Below are positions 29,981-36,333 of a stretch of 64,000 bases of DNA, in pieces. The notes under the pieces are model-generated. The model did no database searches. It saw only the letters and a list, made by a program, of their open reading frames with translations, and was not told the DNA's origin. Source of the DNA: Bacteroidales bacterium (GTDB lineage Bacteria; Bacteroidota; Bacteroidia; Bacteroidales; UBA1402); assembly GCA_017468435.1 (NCBI GenBank), contig JAFUIP010000011.1:1-64000 (forward strand), written 5' to 3'. The position numbers and the translations under genes were made by a program. How positions within the stretch are numbered: position 1 is the stretch's first letter; each line of letters starts with the position of its first letter.

Positions 29981-30751
29981 ATGGAAGCCCTCATCAGACA
30001 ACTTCAGTACCAAACTATCTCTCTTTCGGAGATGGGTAAGGTTCGTTTGATGAAAAGGGTAGATACCAAGTACGTCATTTCACGCCGGCAATTGGAGTTT
30101 CTTTTGGAACGCCTGCCGGCGTATTACTTTGTACAAGAAATAGATGGACGATGCTCCATGCCTTATTACACGCTGTATTACGATACGCCCGACCGTGATA
30201 TGTATCACGATCACAGACGGGGCAGATCCAATAGAAAAAAGATAAGGATCCGCATCTATCGCCATAGCGGACAGGCTTATTTGGAAGTAAAACACAAAAG
30301 TGGAAACGGCCGCACCAGCAAGCATCGTCAGGCAGTGGAAAGTGAACATCATCATTTGCCATTGTCTGCCGAATTTTTGCAGAAGCATTGTCAGTATGAA
30401 TTGCCGCAATTGCAAAGGACCATTGAAAACAATTTCGAGCGTATCACCTTGGTCAGCAAGAATATGGACGAGCGTGTTACCATAGATACGGCCCTGCGTT
30501 ACCGCAATCATCAAACCCATCAGACCTGCAGTCTCGACGATTTGGTCATCATCGAGCTGAAACGCAACGGACATCGTTATTCCCGCCTTCGCGAAGTCTT
30601 GAACGATATGTTGGTAAGCTCCTCGTCTTTCAGCAAATATTGCGTGGGAATGATACTGACTGACAACACATTGAAACAAAATAATTTTAAAGAGAAACTG
30701 CATCCCCTGTCGTATAGAGTTCCCTCCTTGCGACAATGTTATGAACGCTAA
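29981..30751 (+). CDS. VTC-domain protein (polyphosphate polymerase-like)
   Basis: The 256-residue soluble protein resembles the catalytic VTC domain of the yeast polyphosphate polymerase Vtc4, a tunnel-shaped CYTH-like fold. Residues matching the active site are present: Lys25/Arg26 and Lys30 (MKRVDTKYVIS), Arg89 and Arg91 (KIRIRIY), Glu102/Lys104/Lys106 (LEVKHK), Arg173 (IDTALRYRN), Glu192/Lys194 (IIELKRNG) and Lys219 (FSKYCVGM). So it looks catalytically competent. It has no membrane segment, so it should act at the inner face of the membrane, probably with the DUF4956 protein, which starts 11 nt later. The real product of bacterial VTC proteins is not firmly known to me; polyphosphate or another phosphate-linked transfer is inference. 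Confidence 0.9.
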   Translation: MEALIRQLQYQTISLSEMGKVRLMKRVDTKYVISRRQLEFLLERLPAYYFVQEIDGRCSMPYYTLYYDTPDRDMYHDHRRGRSNRKKIRIRIYRHSGQAYLEVKHKSGNGRTSKHRQAVESEHHHLPLSAEFLQKHCQYELPQLQRTIENNFERITLVSKNMDERVTIDTALRYRNHQTHQTCSLDDLVIIELKRNGHRYSRLREVLNDMLVSSSSFSKYCVGMILTDNTLKQNNFKEKLHPLSYRVPSLRQCYER

Positions 30752-30762
30752 ATTGACTAAGT

Positions 30763-31440
30763 ATGAACGAGTTGGATTTATTTGAAGAAGTAGCCGAAAG
30801 CGCGCTCATCGACCCGGAAAACATGGCTCTCCTTTTGGTGAGATTTGCCATCAATCTTGTAGTGACCTGGTTTATCATTCATTTTCAGTATTATAAACAA
30901 AGTCGCAGAAGAGATTATTATTTCACCTTTTTCCTGATAAGCATCAGTATCTTTTTCCTGATATTCTTGTTGGGCGGCGTGAAGTTGAAAGTGGGCTTCG
31001 CCTTGGGATTGTTTGCCATCTTTGGCATCATACGCTACCGAACGGAAACCATGCCCGTGCGCGAAATGACTTATCTTTTCGTCATTATATCGCTCTCGGT
31101 AATCAACGCTTTGGCCATCACCATCAGCTACATGGAGTTGCTGGCCACCAACCTGATTTTTATTTTGGCCATCTGGCTTTGTGAAAAGAATCGTTGGCTC
31201 AAGCATACGGCCACCAAACTGGTGCTCTACGACAAAGTGGAACTGATCATGCCCGAGAAACGCGACGAACTCATTGCCGATTTGCAGACGCGTACCGGCT
31301 TGCATATCACCAAGGTAGAAGTGGGACACATCGATTTTCTGAAGGATACGGCCATGCTCAAGATTCACTACGACAGCGATTCCGAGGTGAACAACACGGT
31401 GAATGAACTATTGAAATTTCCCAAAGATCAACCTATGTAA
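30763..31440 (+). CDS. DUF4956 inner-membrane protein
   Basis: The 225-residue protein has about four membrane segments between 22 and 150 (LLLVRFAINLVVTWFIIHF, YYFTFFLISISIFFLIFLLGGV, LGLFAIFGIIRYR, YLFVIISLSVINALAITIS). The family signature GLFAIFGIIRYRTETMPVREMTYLFVII is present. The C-terminal 80 residues are a soluble alpha/beta domain (YDKVELIMPEKRDELIADLQTRTGLHITKVEV). DUF4956 genes are regularly found beside VTC-domain genes, from my general knowledge of genomes. Function is unknown; a conduit or anchor for the VTC enzyme is plausible. It lies 11 nt after the VTC gene and 7 nt before the DUF2490 gene. Confidence 0.9.
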   Translation: MNELDLFEEVAESALIDPENMALLLVRFAINLVVTWFIIHFQYYKQSRRRDYYFTFFLISISIFFLIFLLGGVKLKVGFALGLFAIFGIIRYRTETMPVREMTYLFVIISLSVINALAITISYMELLATNLIFILAIWLCEKNRWLKHTATKLVLYDKVELIMPEKRDELIADLQTRTGLHITKVEVGHIDFLKDTAMLKIHYDSDSEVNNTVNELLKFPKDQPM

Positions 31441-31447
31441 AAATTGT

Positions 31448-32164
31448 ATGAGAAAGATTCTGTCAGCTGTCCTTGTCTGTGCGCTGTCATTCGGCCTGCA
31501 AGCCCAGAGCCTTTGGACCACCATAGACATAGAGAAGAAAATCAACAAACAGGCTTCTGCTTTTGCCGAACTGGAATACCGTACGCATCAGCATACACTC
31601 ATGAGCGAGCGTGCATCGAGCAGTCTGGGTGTGGAGTACGAATTCAATAAATATCTCAAAGCGCAGGCTTCTTATTCCTTTATCTACCGTCAAAGCAAGG
31701 ACGAAACCACCAAGAAAAACAATCTCGTTCCGGCTTATTGGTCGCCCCGACATCGTGGCAATCTTTCGTTGACGGCTTCGTATAAATGGAAAAAACGTAT
31801 TGAGATATCTCTGCGCGAGAATTATCAATATACCTATCGTTATCAGATGTTTGTGCCGAAATACAATGAATTGGGTTTCCGTATTCCCTACGAAGAGGTG
31901 GATGAAAAACATAAGCATGTGGCCAAGACGCGCCTGGAAATAAAGTACGACATCAAGAAATCGCCATTCGAGCCTTATGTTTCTTGCGAGGCTTATCACG
32001 ACATTTCTACCTGGTATCTCGATAAAATTCGTTATACCGTAGGCTCTACCTACAAAATCAACAAGCAACATCGTCTGGAAATGTATTATCGTTACATCAA
32101 CCATTCCGACGATGATGAAGATGCCGGCTCGGTGCTGGGAATTGGTTATAAATTTAAATTCTGA
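31448..32164 (+). CDS. DUF2490 outer-membrane beta-barrel protein
   Basis: The 238 residues begin with a signal peptide (MRKILSAVLVCALSFGLQAQ), followed by SLWTTIDIEKKINKQASAFAELEYR, the DUF2490 start. The rest is a run of alternating strands (YLKAQASYSFIYRQ, RGNLSLTASYKWKKRIEISLRENYQYTYRY, TRLEIKYDIKK, PYVSCEAYHDISTWY) ending in an aromatic-rich IGYKFKF, the typical last strand of an outer-membrane barrel. It would sit in the outer membrane. Placement between the VTC/DUF4956 pair and a lipoprotein suggests a trans-envelope role. Spacing to neighbours is 7 and 5 nt. Confidence 0.88.
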   Translation: MRKILSAVLVCALSFGLQAQSLWTTIDIEKKINKQASAFAELEYRTHQHTLMSERASSSLGVEYEFNKYLKAQASYSFIYRQSKDETTKKNNLVPAYWSPRHRGNLSLTASYKWKKRIEISLRENYQYTYRYQMFVPKYNELGFRIPYEEVDEKHKHVAKTRLEIKYDIKKSPFEPYVSCEAYHDISTWYLDKIRYTVGSTYKINKQHRLEMYYRYINHSDDDEDAGSVLGIGYKFKF

Positions 32165-32169
32165 GAAAA

Positions 32170-33984
32170 ATGAAGAATAGCATCAAGATATGTTTGGCTG
32201 CGCTCGGCTTGGTTCTGATGGGCTGCGAACCCATTTATATTGGAGGAAAACTCGAAGAAAGCGGCGGTGGAGGTATGGAACATCCTTTTTCTACCGATGT
32301 GGCCCTTTACGACGGACGTTTGGCCTCGGACAGTTTGGCCGATATTGTCGGACGCGATCCTTATATTTTCTGGGAGCAGAATCAATTTCCCTACTTCGTG
32401 AAACTTACATGGGACGGCCCGCAGGTGCAGGTGGAAAGCAATAACGACCGCATTCTTTGTGAAACCCAAGGCGCTCATGTGGTGGTAGATATGCTTACGC
32501 GCGATGTGGCAGGCGTGGCCATCATCATGCAAGGAAAGAGCGACGATGCTTCGCTCAAAATCTACGGACGACGCAATATCAAGCTCGAAATGAATGGTGT
32601 ACAGCTCGTTTCGCAGCAAGGTCCCGTTATCAACAATCAGTGTAAAAAACGTCTTTTTGTGCATCTGAATGCGCAGACTGTCAATACTTTGGAAGATGCT
32701 CCGCTGTATGCCGACGACTTTTATTATATCACCGGCAACGATGCGCTGAGCGAAGACCGCAAAGGCTGTTTCTTCAGCGAAGGTCATTTGGTGTTCAGCG
32801 GTAGGGGCGTCTTGCGCCTGAAAGCCAAGCAACGTCATGGTATTGCCAGCGATGCTACCTTATACCTGCGTCCCGGTGTTACTTTGGTGGTGGACGAGGC
32901 GGCCAAGAATGCCATTCACATAAAAGGCGATGCCGACGATGATATGGGCATACACATTGCCGGTGGCTACATCTACGCCAAAGTTCAGGCCGATGCCGGA
33001 AAATGTATCAAGACCGATCTGCACTTTTTGCAAACGGGCGGTGAACTTTGCCTGAACACCACGGGTCACGCCATTTACGAAAGTCAGTCTCTCGATGCTG
33101 CCGGCGACGAATCGCTCGCTATTTCGGGAGAGAATCTGCTCGATACTTCTTCTCCTGCTTGTATCAAGGCCGATGCCAATGTGCATATCAAGGCCGGAAG
33201 TATCTTTTGCAGAAGCATCGGCACGGGCGGAAAAGCCATCAATTGCGACGGAAATATGCTCATTGAAGGTGGCATTATCCAGGCCGTCACCAATGGAGAT
33301 GATTACTTCCGGATCGATTCTCTCAGCGGCGACACGCTCAGCACATATCCGCATGTGCTCAAGGCCGATGCCGACTTGCGCGTGATGGGCGGACAACTCA
33401 ATCTGGCGGCCAGTCTGAACAGCGAAAAAGCAGCCGTGCTCAAATCGAATGCCTGCATACTCATGGCCGGTGGCGAACTCTTTGCCTATGCCGGCGACGA
33501 TGTGCTGAATGCCGTCGATATACATTTCCGTGGCGGACGCAGTTTCCTTTATTCTGTCAATAACGATGTGCTTGATGCCGACCGTGAGATTCTGCTCGAA
33601 GATGGCCTGATTCTGGCCAACGCGGCCAATCCCTTCCAAAGCTCCATGACGGCTCCGCTGATGCGCCTTGACGGTGCCATTCTGTTGGCGCTATCCGGCA
33701 GCATGAGCCAGTTGCCTGCCCAGGAAAGTCTGCAAGCTTTCCGCCTCCAACGTTTCGACGCCAAGCGCGGCCAGCACCTTGCCCTGATGCAGGGCGATTC
33801 TTGCCTGATGGCCTACGAAATGCCTTTCGGTCTCGATTCTTTGGTGCTGCTCAGTTCTCACCCGGCTCTCAGGCCCGACACGCGTCTTTTCCTCGGCTCC
33901 TCGGCCAATATCACTTCTTCCACCCAACATTGGCACGGCTTCTACGAAAACCCCGTTTGGGTCGGCGGCCGTCTCGTGAAGTAG
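32170..33984 (+). CDS. Cthe_2159-like beta-helix carbohydrate-binding lipoprotein
   Basis: The 604-residue protein has a lipoprotein signal (LVLMGC, Cys19) with acidic residues nearby. The middle and C-terminal parts repeat short strands ending in glycine (GRRNIKLEMNGVQLVSQQGPVI, GRGVLRLKAKQRHGIASDATLYLRPGVTLVV, MGIHIAGGYIYAKVQ, IKAGSIFCRSIGTGGKAINCDGNMLIEGGII), a right-handed beta-helix as in Cthe_2159, a Clostridium protein reported to bind cellulose and acidic sugars. It should be attached to the outer membrane, perhaps facing outward. It closes the VTC cluster and is followed by a terminator. The ligand here is unknown; an acidic polymer would fit the family and the VTC neighbour (inference). 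Confidence 0.88.
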   Translation: MKNSIKICLAALGLVLMGCEPIYIGGKLEESGGGGMEHPFSTDVALYDGRLASDSLADIVGRDPYIFWEQNQFPYFVKLTWDGPQVQVESNNDRILCETQGAHVVVDMLTRDVAGVAIIMQGKSDDASLKIYGRRNIKLEMNGVQLVSQQGPVINNQCKKRLFVHLNAQTVNTLEDAPLYADDFYYITGNDALSEDRKGCFFSEGHLVFSGRGVLRLKAKQRHGIASDATLYLRPGVTLVVDEAAKNAIHIKGDADDDMGIHIAGGYIYAKVQADAGKCIKTDLHFLQTGGELCLNTTGHAIYESQSLDAAGDESLAISGENLLDTSSPACIKADANVHIKAGSIFCRSIGTGGKAINCDGNMLIEGGIIQAVTNGDDYFRIDSLSGDTLSTYPHVLKADADLRVMGGQLNLAASLNSEKAAVLKSNACILMAGGELFAYAGDDVLNAVDIHFRGGRSFLYSVNNDVLDADREILLEDGLILANAANPFQSSMTAPLMRLDGAILLALSGSMSQLPAQESLQAFRLQRFDAKRGQHLALMQGDSCLMAYEMPFGLDSLVLLSSHPALRPDTRLFLGSSANITSSTQHWHGFYENPVWVGGRLVK

Positions 33985-34010: not shown

Positions 34011-34047
34011 CCCCCGAAAGAGCTTTTTTTGATCTGTCTTTCGGGGG
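34011..34047. terminator. Bidirectional intrinsic terminator
   Basis: CCCCCGAAAGA (34011-34021) pairs perfectly with TCTTTCGGGGG (34037-34047), flanked by T- and A-rich sequence. It lies between the ends of the VTC cluster and katG and can stop both. Confidence 0.85.
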
Positions 34048-34065
34048 TTGATTTTTGCGCGGATT

Positions 34066-36333
<2,268 letters not shown>

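Follow-up and report, generated by a model that had tools for sequence, protein, structure and literature searches.

A recurrent VTC–DUF4956 gene cluster of Bacteroidales with a possible role in handing a phosphate-rich polymer to the cell envelope

Four genes on contig JAFUIP010000011.1 of a Bacteroidales bacterium (assembly GCA_017468435.1) encode a VTC-domain protein, a DUF4956 inner-membrane protein, a DUF2490 putative outer-membrane barrel and a Cthe_2159-family lipoprotein. They form one run, all on the + strand, at 29981-33984 of the window, which is the whole 64,000-nt stretch that was analysed. This four-gene cluster is real and recurrent. We tentatively regard it as the Bacteroidales form of a widespread VTC plus DUF4956 core, in which a phosphate-rich chain would be made in the cytosol and handed to the envelope. 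An earlier reading of the window from its letters (the sequence-only reading) had called the set possibly undescribed, which is too strong, because VTC, DUF4956 and CotH are already known as a core that accompanies Gram-positive Pel loci (PMC7112168), parts of which have been deleted in Streptococcus intermedius (PMC12345266). What is new here is the Gram-negative form of this known, functionally unexplained module and, at VTC loci across the phylum, the mutual exclusivity of DUF2490 and a periplasmic adaptor.

A search with a DUF4956 alignment returned 80 Bacteroidales loci, 78 of them usable; these were chosen by similarity to the window DUF4956, and their frequencies are valid for near relatives. 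VTC was adjacent to DUF4956 in 76 of the 78, DUF2490 lay within four genes in 70 and directly downstream in 65, and Cthe_2159 was present in 34. The sequence-only reading had proposed recurrence of DUF2490 and Cthe_2159 beside VTC–DUF4956 as a test of itself, and the 70/78 and 34/78 counts bear it out. Loci that repeat the four genes in the same order include those of Bacteroides cellulosilyticus and B. salyersiae, the gene order is kept in dozens of genomes with varying flanks, and in B. thetaiotaomicron DUF4956 and DUF2490 are listed as neighbours. The source genome is a 1.84-Mb draft in 24 contigs with a completeness of about 70%, and its nearest relatives are uncultured Bacteroidales metagenome-assembled genomes. 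Within its family VTC was found in 12 of 13 genomes and DUF2490 in 11, in 10 of which it adjoined VTC; in genome G002, DUF2490 was on a second small contig completing the same cluster.

The association was then counted in 247 Bacteroidota genomes drawn evenly across the phylum, in which VTC was present in 43, DUF4956 in 68, DUF2490 in 84, CotH in 96 and Cthe_2159 in 11. All 43 VTC genomes had DUF4956 (Fisher 1e-30) and 42 of them had CotH, compared to 96 of 247 overall (Fisher 1.8e-19), both values ignoring relatedness. The sole VTC genome without CotH (G250) carried the four-gene cluster as in the window, including Cthe_2159. Cthe_2159 was itself enriched, with VTC in 7 of the 11 Cthe_2159 genomes (Fisher 6e-4). 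CotH and Cthe_2159 hold similar places within clusters, and many VTC loci have neither nearby. Cthe_2159 is not a core part, and CotH is the more general partner. The window cluster contains no CotH gene and has Cthe_2159 in its place; two secreted CotH proteins of 785 and 879 aa (L182, L183) are encoded on other contigs of the source genome and are possible partners of the cluster. Of 14 named genomes used as controls, the same three had VTC and DUF4956, namely Bacteroides ihuae, Corynebacterium glutamicum and Methanosarcina acetivorans, and the VTC–DUF4956 core also occurs in other phyla and habitats.

The outer part of the cluster varied in a regular way. At 40 VTC loci across the phylum, with DUF2490 counted within 2.5 kb, DUF2490 was present at 14, an AcrA/HlyD-like periplasmic adaptor at 21 and both at 0 (Fisher 5e-7), a pattern in which the two types track VTC clades, so that the exclusivity and the Fisher value reflect non-independent events. 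The adaptor was identified by profile matches to AcrA (E 5e-6) and, more weakly, to MexC-like and EmrA chains, and by a profile comparison that linked its group, at 99.1%, with a second group matching HlyD in Pfam. These gene neighbourhoods suggest that the part facing the periplasm or outer membrane is exchangeable, which supports export across the envelope. The proposal that each envelope layer is represented by one part gains support from this exchange. The window DUF2490 protein carries a Sec signal and ends in Phe, and its family is classed as a putative porin (TC 1.B.81) with a function not established (PMC4827864). The Cthe_2159 protein has an LMGC lipobox with Cys19, its PF14262 match spans two stretches, and a single-sequence search against PDB sequences gave 0 matches. 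A link of VTC–DUF4956 to Cthe_2159, and a role for the lipoprotein in the system, are inferred.

The VTC protein has neither a signal peptide nor a transmembrane (TM) segment, and its AlphaFold2 model had a predicted local distance difference test (pLDDT) score of 95. The best structural match of the model was yeast Vtc4 (3g3r; Z 18.6, 2.9 Å, 216 residues), with Z 15-18.6 for the Vtc4 structures and Z 8-14 (maximum 14.2) for other triphosphate tunnel metalloenzyme (TTM)/CYTH enzymes, and a profile built from 30 bacterial VTCs found yeast Vtc4 in the PDB (E 1.3e-15). The Vtc4-equivalent residues are K30 (K200), R89 (R264), R91 (R266), K104 (K281), R154 (R361), E192 (E426), K194 (K428), K219 (K458) and S218, the numbering of R154, E192, K194 and K219 being derived from motif context in the profile alignment. 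The sequence-only reading had asked that its tunnel residues superpose on Vtc4, and on the 3g3r superposition and the profile alignment they largely do: R89, R91, K104, E192, K194 and K219 hold, and K25 and R173 are not conserved. R89, R91, E192 and K219 were nearly invariant in 30 diverse and invariant in 51 close homologues, and K30, K104 and R154 were nearly invariant as well. In Vtc4, joint mutation of R264, R266 and E426 impaired the enzyme (PMC9911596), and K458 is catalytic (PMC4641920). Tripolyphosphatases have Glu in place of four basic residues with which Vtc4 guides the chain away (PMC4641920). In the structural alignment residue 26 pairs with Vtc4 196 and AtTTM3 residue 2, and, among the positions that were assigned, R26 and K194 are Vtc4-like where AtTTM3 has Glu2 and Glu171. 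D28 falls at AtTTM3 Glu4, the second position of the hydrolase ExExK motif. As judged from alignment and model, the residues known to bind triphosphate, metal and chain in Vtc4 are kept, and polyphosphate polymerase is our best guess for the activity.

The single Pfam domain of the VTC protein comes with neither an SPX domain nor a Vtc1-type membrane domain, and we therefore speak of a Vtc4-like enzyme rather than a VTC complex. Two apparent fusions were artefacts, the VTC-adaptor fusion in L096 being a run-on open reading frame (ORF) in another frame and the VTC-DUF4956 fusion in L102 being caused by a run of N. PPK1 accompanied VTC in 40 of 43 genomes of the phylum sample, so VTC was rejected as a PPK1 replacement, and its product is probably not the storage polyphosphate of the cell. 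PPK1 was not found in the source genome, which means little at 70% completeness.

The DUF4956 model (pLDDT 88) showed five hydrophobic helices followed by a C-terminal ACT-like alpha/beta domain. A positive-inside reading placed this domain and R91/R93 in the cytosol; within the R91-Y92-R93-T94 motif R91, R93 and T94 are invariant or nearly so, as are several glycines. The streptococcal homologue SIR_1592 has been described with four TM segments and an ACT domain (PMC12345266); an MgtC-like TM domain claimed in the same work was not reproduced here. The DUF4956 model gave no significant PDB match. Where DUF4956 occurs without VTC, it adjoins HlyD-like genes (L078-L080) or an OEP/TolC gene (L081), and in Pseudoalteromonas a gene annotated as porin. 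Its gene neighbourhoods suggest that DUF4956 serves as the inner-membrane part of an export route. In L074 and L075, from a lineage without VTC, the genes after DUF4956 encode a secreted protein and a purple acid phosphatase. A TolC identity for the 410-aa gene 3' of HlyD in L079/L080 was unsupported (10% probability, no PDB match), and a listed iron response of B. thetaiotaomicron DUF4956 (-7.6, p 0.175; PMC10434189) was not used.

Put together, the reading that we tentatively favour would run as follows. VTC would polymerise phosphate from ATP, as Vtc4 does, while docked on the cytosolic face of DUF4956, and DUF4956 would conduct the chain through the inner membrane like the yeast Vtc1/3/4 membrane channel. 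DUF2490 would let the chain across the outer membrane, where the Cthe_2159 lipoprotein would retain it or tie it to surface sugars. CotH, where present, may use the chain as a phosphoryl donor or be its acceptor. The nature of the polymer and the channel activity of DUF4956 are putative elements of this scheme. In its most specific form, the cluster would be a dedicated trans-envelope polyphosphate exporter, made of the VTC polymerase, a DUF4956 channel and a DUF2490 barrel or AcrA/HlyD adaptor; the product would serve as a surface anionic polymer and as an energy-rich phosphoryl donor for CotH kinases outside the cell, where there is no ATP, or be captured by Cthe_2159-type lipoproteins. We consider this complete version unlikely as it stands.

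Several observations weigh against the handing of a chain to the envelope. Every aligned bacterial VTC has an acidic D/E at the D28 position, where Vtc4 has Thr198, so that bacterial VTCs may be hydrolases or other transferases, and the open-licence papers found contain no biochemistry of any bacterial VTC. The DUF4956 model had no good match among solved structures and matched no known channel. DUF2490 is present in many genomes without VTC, 5 of the 40 VTC loci had neither barrel nor adaptor nearby, and the clade-bound distribution of the two types belongs here as well. Finally, S. intermedius without its VTC gene (SIR_1593) showed no change in aggregation, unlike strains that lacked the partner genes (PMC12345266).

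The strongest rival is a regulatory module without export, in which VTC would be a hydrolase, a cyclase or a pyrophosphate-forming enzyme acting on a triphosphate compound, and DUF4956 would sense the product and tune a surface polysaccharide or a kinase. The acidic residue at the ExExK position and the ACT-like domain, the latter read likewise in SIR_1592 (PMC12345266), are consistent with it, as are the LytTR sensor-kinase and regulator genes 3' of the cluster in Bacteroides loci L042, L102 and L107. Also in its favour, deletion of the DUF4956 or CotH gene in S. intermedius reduced aggregation and altered the Pel level without abolishing Pel (PMC12345266). Recurrent outer-membrane barrels and AcrA/HlyD adaptors would be unexpected for a purely regulatory unit, however, and R26 and K194 are Vtc4-like where hydrolases have Glu. 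We hold this alternative to be unlikely.

Rather unlikely, in our view, is phosphate chemistry that serves the modification of extracellular polymers or proteins, such as CotH-type phosphorylation, with a small phosphate donor exported and no long chain. It fits the standing of CotH as the most general secreted partner, the similar cluster positions of CotH and Cthe_2159, and the presence, close to some loci of VTC or DUF4956, of genes for arylsulfotransferase-like proteins, purple acid phosphatases and phytase-like proteins. Against it, both CotH genes of the source genome lie on contigs other than that of the window, and Cthe_2159 of the window cluster is not known as a kinase or transferase. 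An adhesion or plant-fibre module is improbable: Cthe_2159 proteins bind cellulose and polygalacturonic acid, an acidic sugar polymer (PMC6712302), many loci originate from ruminants, and the other three genes would merely assemble or decorate a binder of plant cell wall acidic sugars, but about half of the Bacteroidales loci have VTC-DUF4956-DUF2490 without Cthe_2159 and the core is also present in other phyla and habitats. A chance or housekeeping neighbourhood of unrelated functions, to which the SerB, UvrA and ABC-F genes upstream on the same strand might point, is refuted by the order conserved in dozens of genomes with differing flanks, the genome-wide co-occurrence and the barrel/adaptor pattern.

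The layout of the locus is given in Table 1, with each of the four Pfam matches above its curated cut-off. The coordinates and the Pfam matches confirm four genes in one direction with spacings of 11, 7 and 5 nt, as first reported. The strong terminator proposed after the cluster was also found, with the sequence ACCCCCGAAAGA, a loop, TCTTTCGGGGGT and then GATTTTT; RNA folding gave a hairpin of -20.9 kcal/mol (z -2.3), which a simple scan with a loop limit of 8 nt overlooked because its loop is longer.

Table 1. Features of the four-gene cluster in the window.
Feature	Position	Strand	Evidence
VTC-domain protein, 256 aa, putative polyphosphate polymerase	29981..30751	+	PF09359 E 1.3e-30; soluble; TTM tunnel fold
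DUF4956 inner-membrane protein, 225 aa	30763..31440	+	PF16316 E 9e-58; about 5 TM helices
DUF2490 putative outer-membrane beta-barrel, 238 aa, putative outer-membrane exit	31448..32164	+	PF10677 E 7e-26; weak OMP_b-brl match
Cthe_2159-family beta-helix lipoprotein, 604 aa, putative polymer receiver at the surface	32170..33984	+	PF14262 E 4e-30
Intrinsic terminator	34011..34055	+	12-bp GC-rich stem, 15-nt loop, T tract

By Pfam, the cluster is flanked by SerB on one side and a peroxidase gene on the other. SerB lies 5' of VTC on the same strand with a 33-nt gap and may be part of the transcript of the cluster. The peroxidase gene is KatG-like (catalase-peroxidase, window 34066-36315, - strand) and points towards the cluster from the far side of the terminator. 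Antisense ORFs of 150-160 aa 5' of VTC (cluster u4) were discarded, as they overlap the VTC start or the gap, and a DNA search of the whole cluster against plasmids gave 0 matches. Other loci had further neighbours. In several Bacteroides-type loci (L042, L102, L107 and L109) a sensor kinase–response regulator pair of LytTR type comes directly 3' of the cluster and is encoded on its strand, an arrangement shown by B. cellulosilyticus and B. salyersiae; the pair is a candidate regulator. A 140-aa secreted protein without a Pfam match is encoded directly 5' of VTC at 22 loci (L158:5708-6130 and 21 others) and is a possible extra subunit. At 19 loci (e.g. L163:4970-5686) a 238-aa lipoprotein with an Ig/prealbumin-like fold is encoded one or two genes 5' of VTC. 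On an Aminobacter plasmid (L185, 6028-8280), a gene for a phytase-like esterase comes after DUF4956-VTC, and a sigma/anti-sigma pair lies close by. No glycosyltransferase cluster was among the recurrent neighbours.

In the usual view, bacterial polyphosphate is produced by PPK enzymes and stays within the cell. If the favoured reading is true, a second, Vtc4-type enzyme, coupled to envelope parts in many Bacteroidota genomes, would give major gut bacteria a phosphate polymer made for export, or some other phosphate chemistry, at their surface. The barrel/adaptor exchange and the near-obligate link to CotH provide a concrete model for what was a set of DUF genes, and this model is testable since the culturable B. 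cellulosilyticus and B. salyersiae carry the module.

The closest known system is found in the Gram-positive pel clusters, where VTC ('PPP'), DUF4956 and CotH are accessory genes (PMC7112168), as in the pel locus of S. intermedius with SIR_1592-1594 (PMC12345266). The adjacency of VTC and DUF4956, the CotH partner in most relatives and the predicted locations are shared, whereas the window has a Gram-negative envelope with DUF2490 and Cthe_2159 in the operon. No pel genes were seen and pelDEADAFG was not contiguous with the cluster, Pfam having covered only part of the window proteins. The three-gene synteny was stated not to be found outside pel loci (PMC12345266). This published claim is corrected here, as it is contradicted by Bacteroidota loci (e.g. 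L047, L050 and L051) and by a CotH-VTC-DUF4956 locus with no pel gene annotated nearby on a Deinococcus taeanensis plasmid. NELoc-2 of Clostridium perfringens also carries VTC and CotH genes (PMC2879425, PMC11677781), with VTC next to CotH and to small membrane proteins that resemble DUF4956 in size; it differs in being Gram-positive, in its polysaccharide genes and in membrane proteins annotated as tubulin/FtsZ. The CYTH/TTM enzymes (AtTTM3, E. coli ygiF and class IV cyclases) have the tunnel fold but match less well than Vtc4, and Arg26 and Lys194 replace Glu2 and Glu171 of AtTTM3, with Asp28 at its Glu4 position. With the eukaryotic VTC complex (Vtc1/Vtc3/Vtc4) the cluster shares the Vtc4 tunnel fold, the active-site residues and the pairing of a catalytic domain with a membrane partner, in contrast to the missing SPX and Vtc1-type domains, the acidic residue in place of Thr198 and the apparently different fold of DUF4956, which had no structural match. 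Tripartite exporters with an AcrA/HlyD adaptor and TolC are related through the adaptors that replace DUF2490 at VTC-DUF4956 of other Bacteroidota lineages, but no ABC, RND or MFS pump recurs at the core, where DUF4956 is the sole constant inner-membrane protein.

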